This document shows positions 14-13,854 of a DNA stretch of 22,988 bases, one piece after another (the stretch's first letter is position 1; each line of letters opens with the position of its first letter). The DNA comes from a virus. A program made the translations under genes and the position numbers. The notes beneath the pieces are model-generated. The model was not told where the DNA came from. It was given only the letters and a program-made list of their open reading frames with translations, and searched no databases. Location of the stretch: positions 1-22,988 of the IMG/VR virus record IMGVR_UViG_3300031963_000971. The stretch is one strand, 5' to 3'.

Positions 14-45
14 GTCCTAACTCAATATAAATAGTTGAGTTAGAC
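14..45 (-). terminator. Hairpin beginning at the SbcDC stop codon, loop CTATTTATA
   Basis: A perfect 9-base stem (arms 17-25 and 35-43) encloses a 9-base loop, and three more pairs (14-16 with 43-45, one base bulged) can extend it. On the minus strand the arms read CTAACTCAA and TTGAGTTAG and the loop CTATTTATA. The TAA of the gene lies in the first arm. No U-run follows within the window, so it is not a textbook intrinsic terminator. Its loop is shared with the hairpin after the sigma gene at 21202-21230. The remaining bases to the window edge hold nothing else I can see. Confidence 0.6.
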
Positions 46-3000
46 GTTAATATACGAGAATCCGTCCTCCCGTTTGATTTCAATTACCTTGTCCACCATA
101 TCCCGAGCCGTGTCTAAATGGCTGATAAGGACGATAAAATCAAACTGCGATTTCAGGATACCCATCATCGTACCCATAGAACTGAGGTTTTCTGCGTCCA
201 AAACCCCCAATCCTTCGTCAATAATCATAAAGTTCGGCTTCGGGAGGTTGGACGCGTTCAACAAAGCCACTCGAATGGCGAGACTACTGATGAACCGTTC
301 CATGCCCGATGAGTTCTCCAACGGCCAAATACGTTCGTGGTCGTAGTTCAACTTACCGACGATGTTCTTTCCGTCCACTTCAAGAGAAATAGTAAACTCT
401 ACGATTTGGGTCAAGATATTATTGATTTCTGACTCAATTGCAGGAATGGCGCGGGACATCAACTCATACGGAATACCATCACGACATACCGCTTCCATAT
501 AATACTTGTAGGCTTCATAGGTATCTTCAAGTTCTTCGGCTTCCTTGATTTGATTCATAATATCAGTCTTGGTTGCCTCCAACACCTTGATTTCACCGTG
601 AAGTTCCCGAAGTGCCTTCTCTAACTTATCAACTTCCTTTTTGTTGACCGCAATATCTTTAAGGACGCCCTGAATCCGTCCCTCTATAATGAGATTATGT
701 TTGATACTTTCTTCATTGACCTTATGTAATTCAATATCCTTCTCAATCTGTTCCCGATTGCGGTCGCACTTTTCAATACTGGTAATCAACTTCTGGATTT
801 CCAGTTCTATTCCACTTGCTTTCTTTTGAAATTGTTGAATTTCGTTCTGTAACTTTTCATAGTATGCACACAGGTTAACCTTATCAACCAACGGTTCCAT
901 TTGTTGTTTGATTTCGTTGACCGCATCGTTTTGCTTGGATTGAAGTTCCCACAAGTTAATCAATTCGTGGGTAACTGTCTCCATATCTTCAATAATTGAC
1001 TTGTTGTTTTCTACGCAGACATTACAATCTGGATTATACTTGTAACTTTCCAGTTTAGTCTTGAACTTTTCTTTTTCAGTGACTTTTGAGGTAGTCAACT
1101 TTAATGCACTACCACCCTTGTTAAATAAAGTAGAAAGTCTGTTGTACTCTTCAACCGAGTGACGCAGTTCTGGAAGATTTGCGTCTACTAATTCTTCTGT
1201 CTTTTCTCTAATAATATTTTGTATTGATTGAAGTCTATTTTCTTCTTCCGATTTACGAGTTTTATACATCCCAATCAGATTATTGACATCCACCAATGCT
1301 TCTTGTAACTTATCCATATCCAATTCAATATTAGGAAGTGGACGTTTTTGGTCTTGTTGTTCCTTTAACTTAGCATCAAGAATATCTCGTTCTTCCTTAT
1401 ACTCTTTAATCTTTTCTTCCAAGTTATAATGGTCTACCTTGGTCGTATCCAACTTGGTCTGAGTATCGGACAGCAGTTGACCGAAATCCATCTTCTTGAA
1501 CTTCTTCAAAGCACCAGTGAGTTCCTTACTTTCCTCATTTGCAGAATCAAACAACTTATCAAAGATGTTTAATCCCATAAACTGGATAAGTAAGTCCTTC
1601 CGTTCGGAATGTGACTTGTCAATGAATAACGCGTTTGCCGTCTGACTACTCAACGTGGTCAGTACGAAATCCTCGTAACTACCGACATAGTTACGGATGT
1701 TGGCATTGGTATCACGACGGTCTTCACCATTTAATGAAGTATGGGTACCGTCCGAATGTTCCTTCCAGAACGATACGTCTACCTTGACATCACCCGTCTT
1801 TCTACGAGTACCCATCCGACGAATATAGTAAATCTCTTGGTTGATTTCAAACTTCAGTTCACACTCAAACTGGTCCCGACGATTGTTCATAATATGGTCA
1901 CCACGGAACGCACGTGGCGTCTTATCGTAGAGACAGAAGATAAGCGCATCCATAGACGAACTCTTCCCAGTTGCGTTTTGGGCAAAGATGCCGTGGATAC
2001 CGTGCATATGTTCAAAGTCAATCTCGTTATTCTCACCATACGAGAACATATTGGAGAACGTGAACTTCAACGGACGCCAGTGGATATTCCGTGACTGGTC
2101 GTCGTGACTGACTTGTGCGTTCAACATCGTGTTGACATTGATAATCTTCTTCATCAACTCGTCATCAACGGTTTCGTGATTCCGTTGAATCCAATCTTGA
2201 ATCAGCGTATTTTGCGTATTGACGTTTGTTACGTCTGTGGTAATATGATTGACCTTTCTATCGGTCATCTTATTTTGGTTGAATCGGTTCTTGTTGATAC
2301 TCAAATCAATAATGTTATACCGTTTCCGTAGTGCTGCGGTGGTTTTCTTAATAAGTGACGTATCGGCGTTCCCTGTGAACAACCGAAGTCTGACATTCTT
2401 CGGCATATCCGTTGGAAACGCAATCTTCCCTTCTTCCAGTTCAAGGGTATAATATCCGTATGCGTTTGGTAGTTCATTGAACACATGCGTACAATCGTCC
2501 ACATTCCACGAACACCATCCGTGATTCCGTAGGGTTTCTCCGTGGTTCTGTTGAATAAGTGATGAGGAATAGACGATGACGGGATTACTTTCTTGGAGAA
2601 TCTGATACTTGTGGATGTCACCGAGTAATACGATATCGTATCCCGCAAACGTGTCAACACTTACGTGACGATTGGTAATGACGTACTTGATATCAGTCTG
2701 TGCGCCGTGGACTGGTCCGTGGTATAATGCAATCTTTCGTGCGTTCTTCCGACAGTCTTGGACATCGGGCCATTGTTCACGGTCATCCAAGATAGAAAAC
2801 ACTGCAAAGTCTACATCAGCAACTTCGTAAATGCCAGAATGCTTGAAGTAGTGGAGATTGGGATGATTCAGATTCTTGATAATTGGTGTCAAACTATCCA
2901 ATCGGTTCATATTGGACAGATTGAGGTCGTGGTTACCTGCGATGACGAACGTAGGAGCGATGTCCGCAAGATTACGGAGGAACTCGGACGCAAGTTCCAC

Positions 3001-3204
3001 CATCTCTGGACTCATATCGGTCTTGGCGTGGAGGATGTCACCTGCAACGACAATCACCCCGTCAGTTAAATCTTTCTGACGGAGTTGTTCGTAGAATGTA
3101 TTAAACGCTTCCCGATATTCGTCGTGACGCTTAAACAATCTGATGTGGATATCTGCGGTATGTTCTATTTTTCGTAACTTCTTAAATGGGACTTCAATCT
3201 TCAT
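40..3204 (-). CDS. Fused SbcD-SbcC (Mre11-Rad50; T4 gp47-gp46) recombination nuclease/ATPase
   Basis: 1054 residues in one uninterrupted frame. Residues 1-300 are the Mre11/SbcD phosphoesterase: HTADIH (D18, H20), GDILH (D56), AGNHD (N91, H92), YHGPVHG (H162, H166) and LLGDIHK (D196, H198). A linker (about 300-375) leads to the Rad50/SbcC ATPase: FSNMFSYGENNEIDF, Walker A AQNATGKSS (408-416), coiled coils with a CNVC zinc hook (C727, C730), signature SSGMER (965-970), Walker B MIIDEGLG (993-1000) and H-loop H1029. T4 has separate gp47 and gp46. The complex resects DNA ends for recombination-dependent replication and host DNA breakdown. All catalytic residues of both halves are present. It is ATGA-coupled to primase; a hairpin starts at its stop codon. 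Confidence 0.93.
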   Translation of the reverse strand: MKIEVPFKKLRKIEHTADIHIRLFKRHDEYREAFNTFYEQLRQKDLTDGVIVVAGDILHAKTDMSPEMVELASEFLRNLADIAPTFVIAGNHDLNLSNMNRLDSLTPIIKNLNHPNLHYFKHSGIYEVADVDFAVFSILDDREQWPDVQDCRKNARKIALYHGPVHGAQTDIKYVITNRHVSVDTFAGYDIVLLGDIHKYQILQESNPVIVYSSSLIQQNHGETLRNHGWCSWNVDDCTHVFNELPNAYGYYTLELEEGKIAFPTDMPKNVRLRLFTGNADTSLIKKTTAALRKRYNIIDLSINKNRFNQNKMTDRKVNHITTDVTNVNTQNTLIQDWIQRNHETVDDELMKKIINVNTMLNAQVSHDDQSRNIHWRPLKFTFSNMFSYGENNEIDFEHMHGIHGIFAQNATGKSSSMDALIFCLYDKTPRAFRGDHIMNNRRDQFECELKFEINQEIYYIRRMGTRRKTGDVKVDVSFWKEHSDGTHTSLNGEDRRDTNANIRNYVGSYEDFVLTTLSSQTANALFIDKSHSERKDLLIQFMGLNIFDKLFDSANEESKELTGALKKFKKMDFGQLLSDTQTKLDTTKVDHYNLEEKIKEYKEERDILDAKLKEQQDQKRPLPNIELDMDKLQEALVDVNNLIGMYKTRKSEEENRLQSIQNIIREKTEELVDANLPELRHSVEEYNRLSTLFNKGGSALKLTTSKVTEKEKFKTKLESYKYNPDCNVCVENNKSIIEDMETVTHELINLWELQSKQNDAVNEIKQQMEPLVDKVNLCAYYEKLQNEIQQFQKKASGIELEIQKLITSIEKCDRNREQIEKDIELHKVNEESIKHNLIIEGRIQGVLKDIAVNKKEVDKLEKALRELHGEIKVLEATKTDIMNQIKEAEELEDTYEAYKYYMEAVCRDGIPYELMSRAIPAIESEINNILTQIVEFTISLEVDGKNIVGKLNYDHERIWPLENSSGMERFISSLAIRVALLNASNLPKPNFMIIDEGLGVLDAENLSSMGTMMGILKSQFDFIVLISHLDTARDMVDKVIEIKREDGFSYINV

Positions 3205-4112
3205 ATAAGTTGTAACCTTTCGCTGATATAGCCTTTAAGGGAAGTGGATTCTCCTGTTTCTATACACTTCCACGTTTCATTGAAACCTAACTCCGATGGG
3301 TCTTTCTTGTCAAGATTGACCAACTTCACATGCATACCGTGTGAGGTCAACTGACGTTCCATTTCCATTGCTTCAGTTCGTGCATCATTATCCAGTACAA
3401 CATAGACTTCTTTGACATTGTTCTTGACCATCTGCTTCAACAACTTTTTGGGTATGAATTTACCCAAAATGGGTACGGCGTTCCGACGAATGGCGATAGC
3501 ATCAAACACCCCTTCACAAAGAACCAACGGCATCTTCCAGTTGATTTGATTCTCAAACATCACCACGTTCTTTGAGACTGGTGGATTTTTGTATTTCATT
3601 CCATCTTCATAAAAACTACGGGCGATGAAATAGTTCAACTTGTTGTTCGCATCGTAAGACGGAATGATAATACGATTGGCGTATGGACCTTCTACCGTAT
3701 ATCCCATCTGATACCGAATAATGTCATATCCCGTGATTCCTCTATTCTTCAAGTATCTAATAGCGTGATTATAATGGATACTCTTGGTCGGAATCCATAA
3801 CGGTTTGAATCCCGGCGGGAGATACAAGTCCGTCACTTCATCTGCAGTTTCTACATAATTCCGTACTTGGTCATCGGAAAGGAGTGACCGCAGTTCCTTC
3901 ATCTGCGACGGAGATACATCCAGTCTCTTAAATAGTGTTATTAAAGAACGTCCCTTGGCTCCACAATGCCAACAATGGAACATATTCTTCAATATATTAA
4001 TAGCAAATTTTCTCTTGTGATTATGACAGAAAGGACATTGGAAATAGTGTTCACCATTCCCAAACTGTTTAAAATCACCTAATATTTGCGACAAAAGAGA
4101 GATTAGATTCAT
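3201..4112 (-). CDS. DNA primase, CHC2-type zinc finger plus TOPRIM domain (T4 gp61-like role)
   Basis: 303 residues. The N-terminal zinc finger is CPFC (C26, C29) and CWHC (C47, C50), with KFAINILKNMFHCWHCGAKG typical of DnaG-family fingers. A central region (about 100-180) holds GYTVEGPYANRIIIP and FIARSFYEDGMKYKNPP. The TOPRIM core is VLCEGVFDAIAIR (E200, D204), then VYVVLDNDA (D241, D243) and KKDPSEL (D271). These are the expected metal-binding positions for RNA primer synthesis at the replication fork. Length is near T4 gp61 (342). Starting at the next methionine (44) would remove half the zinc finger, so the 4112 start is kept despite its poor ribosome site. Its stop overlaps the SbcDC start as ATGA. 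No helicase domain is fused. Confidence 0.9.
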   Translation of the reverse strand: MNLISLLSQILGDFKQFGNGEHYFQCPFCHNHKRKFAINILKNMFHCWHCGAKGRSLITLFKRLDVSPSQMKELRSLLSDDQVRNYVETADEVTDLYLPPGFKPLWIPTKSIHYNHAIRYLKNRGITGYDIIRYQMGYTVEGPYANRIIIPSYDANNKLNYFIARSFYEDGMKYKNPPVSKNVVMFENQINWKMPLVLCEGVFDAIAIRRNAVPILGKFIPKKLLKQMVKNNVKEVYVVLDNDARTEAMEMERQLTSHGMHVKLVNLDKKDPSELGFNETWKCIETGESTSLKGYISERLQLI

Positions 4113-4158: not shown

Positions 4159-4509
4159 TTATTCAACGGTCTTTTTATTGACCAATTGGAAGAAGTGTTC
4201 TGCGGGAATAACCGCGTACACTGGTGTATTATTTCTCTTAAAGAAAAGAACGGGAGTCGTTCCGTCTTTCGTATTCCCTTCTGCTTGTTCCAGAGAAGCC
4301 CAGATGTTCATCTTTTCTTGGTTCTTACATTCTGGAGAGTAGGGAAATACCTTACGCGCCGCAGGTGACAACTTGATATCTGTCCCACTGTCACCCATCA
4401 GCGTTGAAACCACATCATCTGGTTCCAACTGTGTGAAGTTTTCTAAAATCATGTCTCGTACTGCATTTTGTAACCGTTTACCTTTATTTTTAGCCGAACG
4501 TGGCTTCAT
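4159..4509 (-). CDS. PD-(D/E)XK nuclease superfamily protein (Holliday-junction-resolvase-like)
   Basis: 116 residues with GAGG six bases before ATG. The N-terminus is basic (KPRSAKNKGKRLQNAVRD, residues 2-19). The nuclease core is MGDSGTDIKLS (38-48, D44 a candidate metal ligand), then PECKNQEKMNIWASLEQAEG (59-78) with E60 and K62 forming the E-x-K of the fold, Q64 next to it and E74-Q75 on the following helix. PVLFFKRN and PVYAVIPAEHFFQL complete the expected strands. The CKNQE---W-ALEQAE pattern is frequent in small phage nucleases, often annotated as resolvase- or endonuclease-like. Probable role: branch removal or repair during replication/packaging. It starts the DNA-processing group with primase and SbcDC. 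Confidence 0.82.
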   Translation of the reverse strand: MKPRSAKNKGKRLQNAVRDMILENFTQLEPDDVVSTLMGDSGTDIKLSPAARKVFPYSPECKNQEKMNIWASLEQAEGNTKDGTTPVLFFKRNNTPVYAVIPAEHFFQLVNKKTVE

Positions 4510-5880: not shown

Positions 5881-6939
5881 TTAGTAATCTAGTCGTACGC
5901 GAATCAATGCTTCCTTATCTGTGCTTTTTTGAATTGGTCTACTGAGCTTTGCTACCGCCAACAATTCATTTTCATCATTATACAATCCAATTGTAGTTAT
6001 GTATGTTACTGGCTTTGCTCTAAATGGTTCCAATACTTGCTGTGGATTTGAGCCTGTGTAATATGTTGGATTGTTTGAATAGTTATATTCTGTATTTTTT
6101 ACTCTGACGAAGTAGTTAGTAGATGTGATTGTTTCTGCTGAACGAGCAACGAATGTACTTCCTACCCGCATTGACCCAGAAATAGACCGTACCAAACCTT
6201 CATGTTGATATTGATATGTACTAACTGCTGACCCAGTATAAGGTGCAAACGGTGAATTTGTTCCACTTCTCATATTAGGTGAATCAACAGAACCACTGAA
6301 TCCTACGGAAGAACTTATTGCCGATGGGTTTAATACAATTACTCCGTAGTCAGGGAATACCAATCCGAAGACCGTATTTGATGCTGTATTTGTTACATTT
6401 AATGAGCCTGATTTTACATTATACACATTGTTTGCAACTAAGTTACCTACCACTGCGGTTGTTAATCCACTATCATCAATGAAAGTACTAATACCGTTTG
6501 AACCAGACAATCCCAACTGCCAATTACCTGGGTCTAACGCCTGCTTTAAACGTGAACGTTGAAAATTAATTACATAAATATCATCCGATTCTGCTGTACC
6601 AAATGTAAACTTTTCAACTCCCTTTGCCAACAATATATTTCTATATTGTGCATACACAACTTGTGTTGGCAATGTTGATGTATTTAGTGTAGATAATGGT
6701 GGAGAACCACCGCCGTCAACATGACCATAAGCAACAGAGAATTGAATATCTGATGTGGCTATATTTGACCCGTTATATAAATCGTAATAATATTCGCCGG
6801 AGTTTGCAATCTGTACGCTTGAACTGAATACGGTGGATAAACTTCCCGTATCGTTTGACCACAATCCTGTAGTAACTTCCGTTCCGGTCAGTTCCGATAT
6901 ATCACCATCTTCAAAATCTGTAAATATTTTGTATGCCAT
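5881..6939 (-). CDS. Virion structural protein with shared C-terminal module (paralogue of 5009-5857)
   Basis: 352 residues with AGGA before ATG 6939. Residues about 1-50 open with IFTDFEDGDISELTGTEVTTGLWS, then the protein is beta-rich and Ser/Gly/Thr-rich throughout. VYAQYRNILLAKG (about 94-106) is followed by FTFGTAESDDIYVINFQRSR. The last 40 residues (VTYITTIGLYNDENELLAVAKLSRPIQ) match the end of the next gene (YITGIGLYNERNELLAVAKVSNPIQ), and a middle segment (GLVFPDYGVIVLNPS vs GSIFYDKGIALLRPT) matches too. The pair therefore arose by duplication and divergence. From memory, the YxTxIGLYN-ENELLAVAKLS-PI ending recurs in myovirus structural proteins. Probable decoration or fibre-base protein; exact role unknown. 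Confidence 0.75.
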   Translation of the reverse strand: MAYKIFTDFEDGDISELTGTEVTTGLWSNDTGSLSTVFSSSVQIANSGEYYYDLYNGSNIATSDIQFSVAYGHVDGGGSPPLSTLNTSTLPTQVVYAQYRNILLAKGVEKFTFGTAESDDIYVINFQRSRLKQALDPGNWQLGLSGSNGISTFIDDSGLTTAVVGNLVANNVYNVKSGSLNVTNTASNTVFGLVFPDYGVIVLNPSAISSSVGFSGSVDSPNMRSGTNSPFAPYTGSAVSTYQYQHEGLVRSISGSMRVGSTFVARSAETITSTNYFVRVKNTEYNYSNNPTYYTGSNPQQVLEPFRAKPVTYITTIGLYNDENELLAVAKLSRPIQKSTDKEALIRVRLDY

Positions 6940-7680: not shown

Positions 7681-10600
7681 TTATTCTATTCCCAAAAATC
7701 CGCCACCACCAAACGTAATATTTTCCGTAGATGGTATGTTGTTATTGGTATCCGTTGCTCTCATTGTGTATTCTCCAGACGGACCCACCTTAAACGGAGG
7801 ACACGGTGACCACGGACATCCAGGTGGTGGTATTTCGTCAGTACCTTTTGTGCCTAGGTAATTCTTCCGTTTTAACCCTATGTTATTTTCTCTACTAAAT
7901 TTATAATGACGAGGTAAATATCCTAATGGTATTGAATTAGCAGGTTCGTACGCAAAGTAATGTATTTGAACTTGGGTATTTATATCCGTTCCCGTGATAT
8001 TATCTATTACATAGTAAACCGTTGAATTTATAGTTTGTATTAGTGTGTATGGGAACACATCGGATATTCCGTCTAATTCAGCATCAAACAGTACACCAGA
8101 ATTTATTGCGGGGGCCTGTGCGAAACTTCTACCTGAATCTTGTGAAACTGATGTTGCGTCTCTGTACAACCGTATTCTAAGTCCAGCCGGACCAGTAATA
8201 CCTAATATAGACGCAATATTTGCTATATTAATTGTACCGATAACTGATGAGTTTGCTAAGTACGTGGTTGTAGAAATAGTACTGGTTTGTCTTGCAATCT
8301 CCGGTAAAGTTGCTGGGTCCAGTAACGTAATTTTTGCATACAGTCTGTCAATCGTAGATGATAGTTCTGTATCCAGTTTTACCAAGTATGGTGTTTTATA
8401 TAATGTATAAATATCATACGAATAAATTCCATTACTCTTGTGAAAGTATGTTGTTGTCCCAACATCTGAGAAATCTGCCCGTGGTGGAATAACATACAAT
8501 GGTCCTAGTGTATTATCTTCGCTTGGTATTCTTGCGGGGATGGACCCCGAACTTGGTATTCCAACGAATGCGTTTCTTGGATATGGCGAATTTAAGTGCT
8601 CTAATGGTTTTGCATAAAGTCTCGGGGCTTCCAAATAATTGAAACTGCTACCTTCGTTAAATATTGAAGAAGTTACTAACCCTCCGTCGTTTACTAACAT
8701 TGATGAAGTGTTAAGGTATTGTAATACCCGACGATGTGATGGCAGTAAAGAGGATTTAGTACTTGGTATAACTCGGATTTCCCCGGTCATGTCCAGCGTA
8801 CCAGATAATGGTAATGTATCAGACGTTACCGTTCTCTGTGCTGCTATATCATATGTTACACTGAACGGGTATGCCCCCATATCAATTGAACCAGAGCCCG
8901 AAATGTATGATGCTAATTCTTTTGTTTCTGTTCCATCTACTTTAGTGGAACGAAGTAAATAAGTTTTATTTCTATTGATGATAGGAGATTCAATTACGAT
9001 ACCTTCTATTAGTTTGGTTCTTGCCGGGACCGATGCCTTTGCTATCTCCGTCGGCGATTGTATTAAGTTTTGGAAAAATCTTATATATTGATTTGGATTT
9101 ACCGTTTTATTGAAATACTCTTTAAACTTGTAATTTATTTCATTCAAATTAGTATATTGCGTATTTTCAATATAACGTGGACTCCCGATTATATTATTTA
9201 TATCAATAGTACCCATAGACCTCATAATAGTTTGATTTATAAAGTCAGTAGGAGATACTGCAAACGATACTACATTTTTACCTTGTGTATATATCTTTTC
9301 ATTATTTGATTTGATACTAAATGCTTTATGTAATAATTTAGACCCACTTGTGTCTACGAATCTATAGTCAAACGTCGGAGGTGGTGCAACGTGTACCTTT
9401 TTGTCGGTGTAGATAGTGGTACCTACCAGTGGAGTAAACTGCTTAATAGTTCTGCTTAGTCTACGATACGACGATGTTAAAAATCCTGTTGCTGGCAGAT
9501 TTGAAACTATAGAAATATTACTGTATGGACTTTCATTATATGCTGACTGTGTTATTGATGAGTATGGCTGACTAAAGGATAAATTTACATAAAGATTATT
9601 ATATGAGGATGTATACGTTGCTCCGTAATAAGCAGCCGGGTCGTATACTCGTTGTAAGAAATTTTCACTTGATATATTTTCTCCCCAAACTTGTACTTCG
9701 TCTACTATACCATCAAAATCACTAAGTTTAATTGAACTAGCGGAAATACTTGCACTAACATTAAATTCGTGTATTGACCAGTAATTTCCGGTTCTGGGGT
9801 TAACAATACGTAACCGTAGTTGTGAAGCTAATGTTGGACTTGCAAAACTATAACTTGTAATTGTTGACCCAGAAATTACATCTATCGGTGTCCACGTTGT
9901 TCCATCCAAAGAAGAAGATATACTAAATGTTCCTGGATAGTCATTCGGTGTGCCCGTAGTATCCATTGTAAATGAAACTAATGTTAATTGCTGATTAAAA
10001 TTTACAGAATATATAAGTCCTGCGGATTGGAACTGATTGGTGTCCCATCTTGTACCAGCATTTCCATCAATACTGCTTGAAAAGAACGCTATGCTTGTGT
10101 TTAACGCGCCTGCGGTCCATGAACTTCTTGGAGCTACAGCATTAATTGAACTTGATGCCGGGCCACCGCCTATGTATAAAAATTGGGTTGAATTCCACTG
10201 AGATGATAAATTTACCGACATAGATTCTTCAAAAAGAATCTGGTCACCATCAGTCTGTACTATAGTCAAATCACCCGACTGACTTCGTAACATTATGTTA
10301 GTATAATCATCACTAAACAGTGGAAAATAACTACTGGTTGCTACTATAGTTCTATTTGACCCACTTACTACGTGGATTCTACCATATTCCAACTTGTTGG
10401 CGGTATTTACTCCAAAGATATTATTTATGGAGCTTGTCAAATAATATGTTCTACTGGATGCGGAAGGGTGCGGTACTATATCAATTGCCCATCGTGTGTC
10501 TCCTACTGCAATTGAACTACTTTTCCGTGTTGTGGGAATAAATCGCATCTGTATGGTTGATGCAGTAATTGATGAAGAAACAAATGGAAGTCTGATATGA

Positions 10601-13047
10601 TTATTTAAAGACGAACTAAATTGAAGTCCGTAAGTAAGTTCATCGGATTGTATATAGTTACCGGCATCTGCATAAGAAGTTTCTTTTACCTGTAAGATTG
10701 GCGAATTTATACCGTATAGATTCAATATTGTATCAGTTGAACTTTTTGACCCCTTTATCTTATTCAAGAAAATCATACTATGTAAGAAACGTTTCCATGT
10801 CTCGGCAACCATAGAACGTCCATCACCATCAGACGATGCTAATACAAACTGCTGTAATCTATCCAATCCATATGCGTTTGGTAAGTTCAATCCAAACGAT
10901 TTTGCAACTTCATATACTTGGTCCATCGTCAATTCATCTGTTGGCGATGGATTTGTAGAATATATATTTGGGAACTGGTCTATGTATACTTTTATATTAT
11001 CAAATACGTGACCCACCATTTCAACCAAATCTATAAATTCTTGTGAGTCCGTATCTTCTTGAAGATAGATAGGTAACTGTGACGACAGTTTATTCGGATT
11101 AAATTCATCATATCGTTCTGCTATAGCAGATTGTATCGGATACCACGAATTAGACACCACGGGATGTGATGGACTATATGGTTTATTGTTTGCATCTTTT
11201 GGCCAAGACCCTGTTGCATTATATTCTGTTCCTTCATCGGAGTAGTAAGCACTACCAGAATATGCAATTGCTGACCCAGACTCAAAGTACAAAAATTGCT
11301 CATACGGGTCAAAATTTCTAATGATATTTTCTTTTTCTAAAGCTTTAAGTGATGCGCCTGTATTTTCACTTGTTGTACTTCCGCTAGAAAGTATATCTAG
11401 TTCTTGTATTTTTATTAATTTTTGTGAGAATGTTTCTAATCGTTTTAGTGCCGACCCAAAACTAACGAAATTTTTATAGTCAGAAAAATCTATATTAAGT
11501 TCCGATGATTTGAAATCTGCTGTTAACCATTTACGGAATACTTTATCTTCGTATGTTATTACACTATTAGACAGTTCTCCTTGGAATCCAGTTAATAGTT
11601 GTAAATTTGTTAGCGTTGCATTATTAACACTTGCTCCAGTGGTACCAAATTTGTTCGGTGCGGCCATCGGCCGTAAGTATAATGTATTGTCTTGTTCTGG
11701 ACCTAACTGGAATTCAACTGTATCTATAACAGATTTTGCTACTTCTCTACTGATGTATGCAGGAGAATTTATACCTATGGTGGTTTCTAAACTAGTTAAT
11801 AATTTAAATTGTACTTTGTTTTTTGTTTCATCCGAGGGACTTATTCTCCAAGATTGTGCTACATATTGTCTATCATCACCAAAGTTCAATATTGTTTTAA
11901 ATTCTCTTGTTTCATCAAAAAATGTCAATACTTTTTCTTCTATTACATTTCTTGCCGTAGTCTTAATTGCATCAAACAGACCAACGGTTGCGGTTGACAG
12001 AGAAACTCGTAGTGGTACAGTTATTGTTGCTGTTTCTAGGTCAGGTGTTCTTGAAAGGGATGAATCTTGTAATTCTAATGCGTTATCAATAAGTGTAATA
12101 TAATTTTGAAGATATATAACTGCATTAACATATGTACGTTCGTTTAAATCTGCGCCCGTGTTAACAAATGTAAATGGAAAATGTCTTGCAAGTGCATCCT
12201 TACTTATCCATTTTTCAGCATTACCATTGCCTCCAGGACCAGGATGACTTGATGGTGTTGTTGCAGTTCCATTTGGATTAGATGTACAAAATAGTGCATC
12301 TGCTAAGCATTCACGGACAAGTAGTGCAATTGCTTGTTGTGTGGGTACCTGTTTACTTTTCGTTGCAAGGTCAATCTCGTTTCTAGAATCGTATAAACGT
12401 TCTATTGACCGACGTGTTGGTGAATTTTGAATTGCTTGTGCAGTAATATTAGGAAAATCTGCACGAGTCATCTTCCATGGCGCAGCATTATCTTCTCTAC
12501 CTTCTTGTCTACGTTGTGCAGCAAGTTTTATTCCTGCAAGGACGACTGCTGCAAGTCCTGCGTATCTTGCTATAAGTTTTGCTGCTGCAGACGTTGTGAA
12601 TGAGAGTAATCCACCACCACCTGCGGCCGTCGTGCCACCGGAAGTTATTGCAAAGTTTAAAGAAGAATTAAATGCTACGGCCCCAGTTGCACCAAACCCT
12701 GCGGCACCAACTACACCAGCAGTTGTTAAATTTTCAAAATTGTTGTTTGCTACAATTCGTTGGGCTTCCAGTTGTAAATCATTTATATATTTCTCAACTT
12801 TGTCAATTTTAACAGCGCCGTCACCAAAAAACCGTGGGTCAGTGAAACTATCCAGTACTATTTGTAACTTTCTTTTCTTTTCTCGTAAATCTGCAGCAGT
12901 GTAATATAATTCTGCTACTTTGAGTTCCTGTTGTTCTGATGGACTCAATGTAGAAGTAGTTCCTAACCCGTATTCAAATCCTTTTGCATTTTGGGTTATT
13001 GCTCTGTAACTTTCATTCAGTTGATTTACGAATATTCTATGACTCAT
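7681..13047 (-). CDS. Giant baseplate/tail protein with LamG-like domain interrupted by an F5/8 type C-like domain
   Basis: 1788 residues; gp7 candidate by position after gp6 (T4 gp7 is 1032 residues). N-terminal helix (36-104) precedes a Gly/Ala-rich hydrophobic stretch (about 107-177). A helical core around 640-790 (AERYDEFNP, LPIYLQED, FLNKIKGSKSS) looks like a tail/wedge scaffold. Residues about 800-960 and 1100-1138 fit a LamG-like jelly roll, ending in FDGIVDEVQVWG...FLQRVYDP. Between them lies an F5/8 type C (discoidin)-like domain (about 970-1100): DGNAGTRWDT, SFTMDTTG, SISSSLDGTTWTPI, LRLRIVN and YWSIHEFNVS. Both domain types bind glycans or cell surfaces in known proteins. The C-terminus has a PPPGCPWSPCPPF segment. 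Ribosome site is weak (GAGA). The gp7 identity is tentative; the tail-protein call is firm. Confidence 0.82.
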   Translation of the reverse strand: MSHRIFVNQLNESYRAITQNAKGFEYGLGTTSTLSPSEQQELKVAELYYTAADLREKKRKLQIVLDSFTDPRFFGDGAVKIDKVEKYINDLQLEAQRIVANNNFENLTTAGVVGAAGFGATGAVAFNSSLNFAITSGGTTAAGGGGLLSFTTSAAAKLIARYAGLAAVVLAGIKLAAQRRQEGREDNAAPWKMTRADFPNITAQAIQNSPTRRSIERLYDSRNEIDLATKSKQVPTQQAIALLVRECLADALFCTSNPNGTATTPSSHPGPGGNGNAEKWISKDALARHFPFTFVNTGADLNERTYVNAVIYLQNYITLIDNALELQDSSLSRTPDLETATITVPLRVSLSTATVGLFDAIKTTARNVIEEKVLTFFDETREFKTILNFGDDRQYVAQSWRISPSDETKNKVQFKLLTSLETTIGINSPAYISREVAKSVIDTVEFQLGPEQDNTLYLRPMAAPNKFGTTGASVNNATLTNLQLLTGFQGELSNSVITYEDKVFRKWLTADFKSSELNIDFSDYKNFVSFGSALKRLETFSQKLIKIQELDILSSGSTTSENTGASLKALEKENIIRNFDPYEQFLYFESGSAIAYSGSAYYSDEGTEYNATGSWPKDANNKPYSPSHPVVSNSWYPIQSAIAERYDEFNPNKLSSQLPIYLQEDTDSQEFIDLVEMVGHVFDNIKVYIDQFPNIYSTNPSPTDELTMDQVYEVAKSFGLNLPNAYGLDRLQQFVLASSDGDGRSMVAETWKRFLHSMIFLNKIKGSKSSTDTILNLYGINSPILQVKETSYADAGNYIQSDELTYGLQFSSSLNNHIRLPFVSSSITASTIQMRFIPTTRKSSSIAVGDTRWAIDIVPHPSASSRTYYLTSSINNIFGVNTANKLEYGRIHVVSGSNRTIVATSSYFPLFSDDYTNIMLRSQSGDLTIVQTDGDQILFEESMSVNLSSQWNSTQFLYIGGGPASSSINAVAPRSSWTAGALNTSIAFFSSSIDGNAGTRWDTNQFQSAGLIYSVNFNQQLTLVSFTMDTTGTPNDYPGTFSISSSLDGTTWTPIDVISGSTITSYSFASPTLASQLRLRIVNPRTGNYWSIHEFNVSASISASSIKLSDFDGIVDEVQVWGENISSENFLQRVYDPAAYYGATYTSSYNNLYVNLSFSQPYSSITQSAYNESPYSNISIVSNLPATGFLTSSYRRLSRTIKQFTPLVGTTIYTDKKVHVAPPPTFDYRFVDTSGSKLLHKAFSIKSNNEKIYTQGKNVVSFAVSPTDFINQTIMRSMGTIDINNIIGSPRYIENTQYTNLNEINYKFKEYFNKTVNPNQYIRFFQNLIQSPTEIAKASVPARTKLIEGIVIESPIINRNKTYLLRSTKVDGTETKELASYISGSGSIDMGAYPFSVTYDIAAQRTVTSDTLPLSGTLDMTGEIRVIPSTKSSLLPSHRRVLQYLNTSSMLVNDGGLVTSSIFNEGSSFNYLEAPRLYAKPLEHLNSPYPRNAFVGIPSSGSIPARIPSEDNTLGPLYVIPPRADFSDVGTTTYFHKSNGIYSYDIYTLYKTPYLVKLDTELSSTIDRLYAKITLLDPATLPEIARQTSTISTTTYLANSSVIGTINIANIASILGITGPAGLRIRLYRDATSVSQDSGRSFAQAPAINSGVLFDAELDGISDVFPYTLIQTINSTVYYVIDNITGTDINTQVQIHYFAYEPANSIPLGYLPRHYKFSRENNIGLKRKNYLGTKGTDEIPPPGCPWSPCPPFKVGPSGEYTMRATDTNNNIPSTENITFGGGGFLGIE

Positions 13048-13059
13048 ATTTACGTCTCA

Positions 13060-13854
13060 TTAAAGTCCAGTTTTACCATCACTACATACTCCACCTGCAC
13101 AATAACTACATTCGCCAGAGCAATCTTCGTCCGTTGTACACTGTTTACCACATGAACCTATATTAGACGGTGTTTTACCAGGAGTTATTGTTGTACTAAC
13201 CGTAACTGTAGTTTGTGCTGTTTTTCCATTTGCGTCATATAAAATCCGTGTTGTACCTGGTGATATTCCTCTCACTCTACGTCTATCTAAACTATCTACA
13301 TTTGTGCTTTCGTATGTTAGTTGAGCAATACTCATGTTTTCTATTTTCCACTCTACTTGACCACCATCTTCTTCATTTCCTGTTACATCGTATGTTTTTA
13401 TAGTTACCACTTGTGTTTCACCAATATTTAAATTAATATCTGTCGGAGCTATTATTATATTCTGTGGTTTACCTTGTGTTGTTTCTGGTACCACAATTAG
13501 TCTACTACCCGAAGTTAAATTAAATGTTATTGATGGATATATTACAGTTTCAGGTCGTGATTCTATGTCAGGTGGTAAATCCAACTTAACATATACCAAT
13601 TGACTAGAAGATGGCTGTAAAACTACGTTACCACTTGGATATCGTAAATCTTTATTTGTTTGTGGGTCTACAATACGTAACCAACTATCTGTAGTAGTCA
13701 TATCAACAGTCATAGCTAGTGTATCATCCAAATTTGTCAACAACATAGGAATGTTGGTAACTGTGGCCGTATTAAAGTTATAGTTTCTTACGTAGTCTAT
13801 ACTACTGGTAGTAAGATTATATACGAACTTTTCTCGAATATTATATACACTCAT
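13060..13854 (-). CDS. Ig-like structural protein with a six-cysteine knottin-like C-terminus
   Basis: 264 residues. Residues 1-125 are strand-rich with no known match. Residues about 130-220 look like a bacterial Ig-like (BIG2-type) domain: IIIAPTDINLNIGETQVVTIKTYD, later RVRGISPGTTRILYDANG and TVTVSTT. The last 30 residues hold six cysteines (235, 239, 245, 249, 252, 257) with spacing C-x3-C-x5-C-x3-C-x2-C-x4-C and a TDEDCSGEC core; the rest of the protein has no cysteine. This looks like a small disulfide-knot module, unusual for a phage assembled in the reducing cytoplasm. It may be an exposed host-contact tip. Start is within an ATGA overlap. The gene lies just upstream of the giant tail protein. 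Confidence 0.78.
   Translation of the reverse strand: MSVYNIREKFVYNLTTSSIDYVRNYNFNTATVTNIPMLLTNLDDTLAMTVDMTTTDSWLRIVDPQTNKDLRYPSGNVVLQPSSSQLVYVKLDLPPDIESRPETVIYPSITFNLTSGSRLIVVPETTQGKPQNIIIAPTDINLNIGETQVVTIKTYDVTGNEEDGGQVEWKIENMSIAQLTYESTNVDSLDRRRVRGISPGTTRILYDANGKTAQTTVTVSTTITPGKTPSNIGSCGKQCTTDEDCSGECSYCAGGVCSDGKTGL

Follow-up and report, generated by a model that had tools for sequence, protein, structure and literature searches.

Introduction

In canonical systems the Mre11/SbcD nuclease and the Rad50/SbcC ATPase are separate chains, and the initial annotation of the locus described here set it against that rule. The rule stands for those systems, but single-chain Mre11/Rad50 proteins were already reported in 2011 (Yoshida et al. 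2011; PMC3175470). That study described fusions in Mimivirus (R555), Bacillus phage 0305phi8-36, plasmids, bacteria and eukaryotes, inferred that many aquatic fusions belong to phages, and noted that marine relatives of R555 adjoin phage primase and endonuclease genes. For its own set of proteins repeated fusion was inferred. R555 departs from the Mre11 motifs twice, at GDxxH and in the Asp that replaces the first His of motif V. The distance from the C-terminus of Mre11 to the N-terminus of Rad50 was put at about 28 Å, that is, 9–12 residues (Yoshida et al. 2011; PMC3175470).

How does a fused gene on a long phage contig compare with these? The stretch of DNA analysed, which we call the window, is a virus record of 22,988 bases from water.

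The fused gene and its neighbourhood

One uninterrupted, ATG-started frame of 1054 codons occupies positions 43–3204 of the minus strand, with its stop codon at 40–42; the plus-strand frame at 40–3204 is stop-rich and not open. Pfam Metallophos matches residues 13–200 of the translation (E = 7e-9) and the PHROG SbcC-like family phrog_77 matches residues 304–1053 (E = 3.7e-45). The NCBIfam models for SbcC, Rad50 and SbcD also match, with scores below their curated cut-offs, and sequence comparison with the PDB returns chains of SbcC, Rad50 and Mre11, each over the expected half of the protein. The metallophosphoesterase motif set of Mre11/SbcD (DxH, GD, GNHD, H and GxH) is complete, motif V reading GDIH. 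The Rad50/SbcC set (Walker A, Q-loop, signature, Walker B, D-loop, H-loop and CxxC hook) is complete as well, the signature reading SGME, not SGGE. The open frame, the two domain matches and the homologues described below thus bear out the proposal that both proteins are encoded as one fused chain, here on the minus strand, and the zinc hook lies where it had been placed (table 1).

Table 1. Features of the fused gene and of the two genes upstream of it (positions are those of the window; residues are those of the fused protein).
Feature	Residues	Position	Strand	Basis
Mre11–Rad50 fusion gene	1054 codons + stop	40..3204	−	frame, Metallophos and SbcC-like matches, homologues
Mre11/SbcD-type nuclease domain	10–240	2485..3177	−	Metallophos; motifs invariant in 54 homologues
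Nuclease motifs	DxH 18–20, GDxxH (GDILH) 55–59, GNHD 90–93, H162, GDIH 195–198			
Mre11 capping-like region (putative)	241–304	2293..2484	−	AlphaFold2 strands and helix; Mre11 architecture
Variable disordered segment	305–327	2224..2292	−	pLDDT <50 at 308–321; low conservation
Rad50-binding helix-loop-helix of Mre11 (predicted)	328–364	2113..2223	−	two helices; Q331 and N358 in 54/54 homologues
10-residue joint to Rad50	365–374	2083..2112	−	AlphaFold2 model and alignment
Rad50/SbcC N-terminal ATPase half	375–560	1525..2082	−	Walker A 408–415, Q-loop Q521
Coiled coil	about 561–890	535..1524	−	long helices in AlphaFold2 model
Zinc hook CNVC	727–730	1015..1026	−	both Cys in 54/54 homologues
Rad50/SbcC C-terminal ATPase half	891–1054	43..534	−	signature SGME 966–969, Walker B/D-loop 991–1003, H-loop H1029
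DnaG-type primase (CHC2 zinc finger + Toprim)		3201..4112	−	directly upstream of fusion
PDDEXK / RusA-like Holliday junction resolvase-like nuclease		4159..4509	−	upstream of primase

The stop codon of the primase overlaps the start of the fusion (ATGA, 3201–3204), and GAAAGG lies about 11 bases before the ATG of the fusion. The arrangement recurs: a primase is found upstream in 107 of the 108 loci that have room for one, at a distance of at most 600 bp in 99 (some contigs are counted twice). Elsewhere in the window, PHROG matches identify T4-type baseplate wedge genes and tail proteins, so the virus would be a contractile-tailed phage. In its tail region a protein of 1788 residues (7681–13047, minus strand) carries an F5/8 type C (discoidin-like) domain at residues 991–1094, likely a carbohydrate-binding part. 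The neighbouring 264-residue protein (13060–13854, minus strand) has a weak bacterial Ig-like match and a cysteine-rich C-terminal tail, CGKQCTTDEDCSGECSYCAGGVCSDGKTGL, whose knottin-like Cys spacing is odd in a phage tail-region protein.

The junction and the conservation of active sites

What lies between the two enzymes? An AlphaFold2 model built from 54 homologues reached a mean pLDDT of 82.7 and a pTM of 0.45, and because of the latter value the relative placement of its domains is uncertain. It contains a nuclease fold, capping strands up to residue 304, disorder at about 305–327, a long coiled coil reaching to about 906 and the second ATPase half at the C-terminus. Two helices follow the disordered segment (328–342 and 348–364), and the first Rad50 strand begins at 375. 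Only within 305–327 does pLDDT fall below 50. By position and architecture, residues 328–364 appear to be the helix-loop-helix by which Mre11 binds the Rad50 coiled coil at its base. The junction had been described as a linker of about 75 residues. It measures 70–75 residues in every one of the 54 aligned sequences, among which Q331, N358 and W376 never vary, but it is not a linker: it consists of the short disordered segment, the conserved helix-loop-helix, which makes up most of it, and a joint of about 10 residues. That joint (365–374) falls within the estimate of 9–12 residues, and a capping-domain/helix-loop-helix region followed by some 9–12 residues before Rad50, as in the fusions of 2011, is present (PMC3175470). 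When the model was compared with known structures by Foldseek, the top PDB matches were Mre11–Rad50 complexes and SbcCD. Against BFVD, full-length fusion proteins of giant viruses ranked highest (Tupanvirus, 26% identity), and those of the phages pT24 and PTm1 came tenth and eleventh.

The initial annotation held that the protein looks active rather than decayed, and the homologues agree. Among the 54, DxH, GDxxH, GNHD, H162 and GDIH never vary in the nuclease, nor do G413 and K414 of Walker A, SGME, the DE of Walker B, H1029 and both hook cysteines in the ATPase; Q521 of the Q-loop has a single variant. Metal use may differ, since motif V, as GDIH, lacks the first His that is canonical in Mre11. 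The Nei–Gojobori ratio of non-synonymous to synonymous change is about 0.04–0.07 across the gene, with its minimum in the two ATPase halves and larger values in the coil. For distant pairs it is only rough because synonymous differences approach saturation. These ratios point to strongly purifying selection, under which the helix-loop-helix and the joint also fall.

Single-chain relatives

IMG/VR was scanned both with the protein and with the alignment, the second scan confirming at least 588 relatives, the 80 best being retained. After removal of between-scan duplicates by contig name, 107 distinct contigs were fetched. Among these listed matches, 94 of 107 carry the whole protein in a single frame, at about 36–97% identity. 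As for the other 13, four end at a contig edge after the onset of the ATPase, eight are fragments beginning within the ATPase, and in one (L058) the gene is interrupted. Such lists are ordered by overall match and could hide two-gene relatives, so a further scan relied on the ATPase signature SGMERF(I/V)S alone. It gave 80 loci: nuclease and ATPase share one frame in 51, the upstream part is lost at the contig end in 24, the parts lie in separate frames in two, one has a closed short frame near the contig end and two do not match. Close two-gene relatives were absent from these 80 loci, save for two odd cases. One (L157) has a frameshift near the zinc hook. In the other (L218, 554–3691) an in-frame TGA within the helix-loop-helix splits the fusion into a nuclease and an ATPase frame. 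A scan of genome collections returned only five loci, mostly on short MAG contigs, which may be of viral origin, and the plasmid fusions of C. kluyveri and Deferribacter were not recovered from PLSDB with the window protein as query.

An isolated relative is Microcystis phage Mel-JY01, complete at 190 kb. Its protein WWT39521.1 (36% identity over 99%) is encoded in a single frame, labelled only ‘AAA domain containing protein’, with a primase upstream and a small ORF between the two. The genome has neither a second metallophosphoesterase nor a second full SbcC; therefore the fusion is its only such enzyme, and the idea of an extra copy beside a normal pair is ruled out in this phage. Our literature search on this protein, or on further phage fusions, returned nothing besides the 2011 paper (PMC3175470). 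Proteins of jumbo phages named ‘metallo-phosphoesterases’ (PAU gp288, pT24, PTm1 and MA9V-1; phrog_35725) are likewise a single-chain nuclease with a Rad50-like part. They are about 1300 residues long and very divergent, PAU retaining GHIH. Another distant fusion, of 1202 residues, occurs in a 735-kb phage (LR756501.1), which also has a second SbcC-like region at 670999–672753 with in-frame stops under the standard code.

Interrupted relatives

In an uncultured phage of 484 kb (L001, LR756508.1; 7971–12196) the fused gene is broken after codon ~206, just past GDIHK, by a 305-residue ORF in whose product a TnsA-like endonuclease domain accompanies zinc-finger-like CxxC motifs. L058 is broken at the same site (6600–6800), by only about 180 bases. 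Its in-frame tail, EYSVEEIEVDENEVEQYLKDGW, resembles EYEVEEMVVEEDELEKYLNSGW of L001, and a ribosome-site-like AAAGAGG precedes the next ATG; it looks like a decayed insertion that has left a split Mre11. Rfam gave no match to a group I intron in either locus, so the nuclease domain of L001 may be made as two chains. The topoisomerase genes 39/60 of T4 are a precedent for an interrupted gene made in this manner. A search with the L001 fragment found no further interrupted relatives.

Origin of the fusion

A concatenated tree of nuclease and ATPase was built from 16 fused phage proteins together with two-gene pairs, 8 from phages and 5 from bacteria. All 16 fused proteins form one clade with support of 100/100. 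It takes in Mel-JY01, the 484-kb and 735-kb phages and the jumbo phages of Tenacibaculum, Chryseobacterium and Sphingomonas, PAU, pT24, PTm1 and MA9V-1 among its members. In separate trees the fused forms occupy one side of a branch (68/57 for the nuclease, 98/97 for the ATPase). With five bacterial pairs sampled, the phage fusions fall outside the canonical cellular clades. The nuclease precedes the ATPase in all two-gene phage relatives fetched, and the genes overlap in D254 and Ceto; a pair in this order is the natural precursor of the fusion.

Many single-frame homologues in one clade confirm the suggestion that the fusion is a lineage trait, and one common in a large group of aquatic phages. 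Since the sampled phage fusions form a single clade, one old fusion is the simplest reading, and the tree favours a single event among the sampled phages; the reading leaves aside the 2011 fusions of bacteria, eukaryotes, Mimivirus and phage 0305phi8-36. A broader scenario is tentative, and we think it more probably wrong than right: that one old, non-recurrent fusion replaced the two-gene form across very many aquatic and jumbo tailed phages, passed to or from giant viruses, and was later cut again in the nuclease domain by insertion of an endonuclease gene, on two branches or more, so that a split but working Mre11 resulted.

Proposed function and alternatives

With a probability of roughly 0.88, judged from sequence, the gene encodes the phage's single-chain Mre11–Rad50 (SbcD–SbcC, T4 gp47–gp46) DNA-end-processing nuclease; it is probably the gp46/47 equivalent of this phage. 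An operon of nuclease then ATPase would have had its two cistrons merged into one gene. By analogy with the family, two chains would dimerise through their nuclease domains and ATP-bound heads. The helix-loop-helix would dock in cis, at the root of the coiled coil in the same chain, for which the 10-residue joint is about long enough, and the zinc hooks may hold two DNA ends together. Once ATP is hydrolysed, the heads would open and allow the nuclease to trim ends or open hairpins. If the role resembles that in T4, the resulting 3′ single strands would feed recombination-dependent replication and repair of the phage genome.

What might the phage gain from a covalent fusion? It had been proposed that fusion fixes a 1:1 stoichiometry. 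This adds little, because the unfused Mre11–Rad50 complex is already 2:2, but a single chain would ensure co-synthesis and local pairing. Co-translational pairing and tethering in cis are the likelier gain.

Could the fused frame instead be an artefact of assembly or sequencing, in which a stop or frameshift between two genes was lost? There is a precedent. Listeria phage LMTA-57 (L140, 1738–4767) has a joined frame of 1009 residues where A511 has two genes, through a single-base deletion just upstream of the sbcD stop; either the fusion is very recent or the sequence is in error. In the present case the same in-frame junction recurs in 94 further contigs and in the isolate Mel-JY01, which therefore excludes a missed stop or frameshift near residues 300–375, as well as homologues encoded throughout by two genes. 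The narrow range of junction length and the purifying selection on the helix-loop-helix and joint argue likewise, and we give the artefact practically no weight.

Nor does the frame have to remain one protein, for a chain translated whole could function as two after proteolysis in residues 305–327. This segment is poorly conserved and holds the only stretch of pLDDT below 50, but it shows no visible conserved cleavage motif and nothing else suggests processing; we regard proteolysis as improbable. Somewhat less so, though still unlikely, is a role in degradation of the host genome, defence or counter-defence instead of replication and repair. SMC-like ATPases with nucleases also build defence systems such as Lamassu, and T4 gp46/47 is annotated as also required for host-DNA degradation. 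PADLOC LmuB profiles match the ATPase half of the fusion, as expected since LmuB is itself Rad50-like. Against such a role, the gene lies directly behind the primase and is itself conserved throughout its clade.

Comparison with known systems

The Mre11/Rad50 fusion as a kind has been known since 2011, and single-chain forms of isolated phages sit in databases under vague names. What the present analysis adds is the extent of the fusion across long phage contigs, the grouping of the sampled phage forms in one clade, and the relatives in which the gene is interrupted. What short reads had suggested, that fused genes are common in aquatic viruses and probably in part belong to phages, now takes the form of whole genes, found on long phage contigs and in Mel-JY01, an isolate in which the function of the fusion could be tested. 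A natural single-chain Mre11–Rad50 is also a handy construct for structures of the nuclease seated on the ATPase. That the tree backs one origin over recurrent fusion among sampled tailed phages is a modest revision.

With the pairs of T4 (gp47/gp46), of the SPO1/A511 type and of T5-like phages (D12/D13) the window shares gene order, domains and replication-gene neighbours, but those are two proteins whereas the window encodes one chain. Motif V is GHxH in T4, S-SKS1, X1, A511 and EalM-132, in contrast to the GDIH of the window. The Mimivirus R555 type has the same order of nuclease, helix-loop-helix, short joint and ATPase, and both motif departures of R555 are matched by GDILH and GDIH of the window. 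Like the aquatic relatives of R555, the fusion stands beside primase and endonuclease-type genes. It differs from R555 (1351 residues) in belonging to a tailed phage and in its length of 1054 residues, with a shorter coiled coil.
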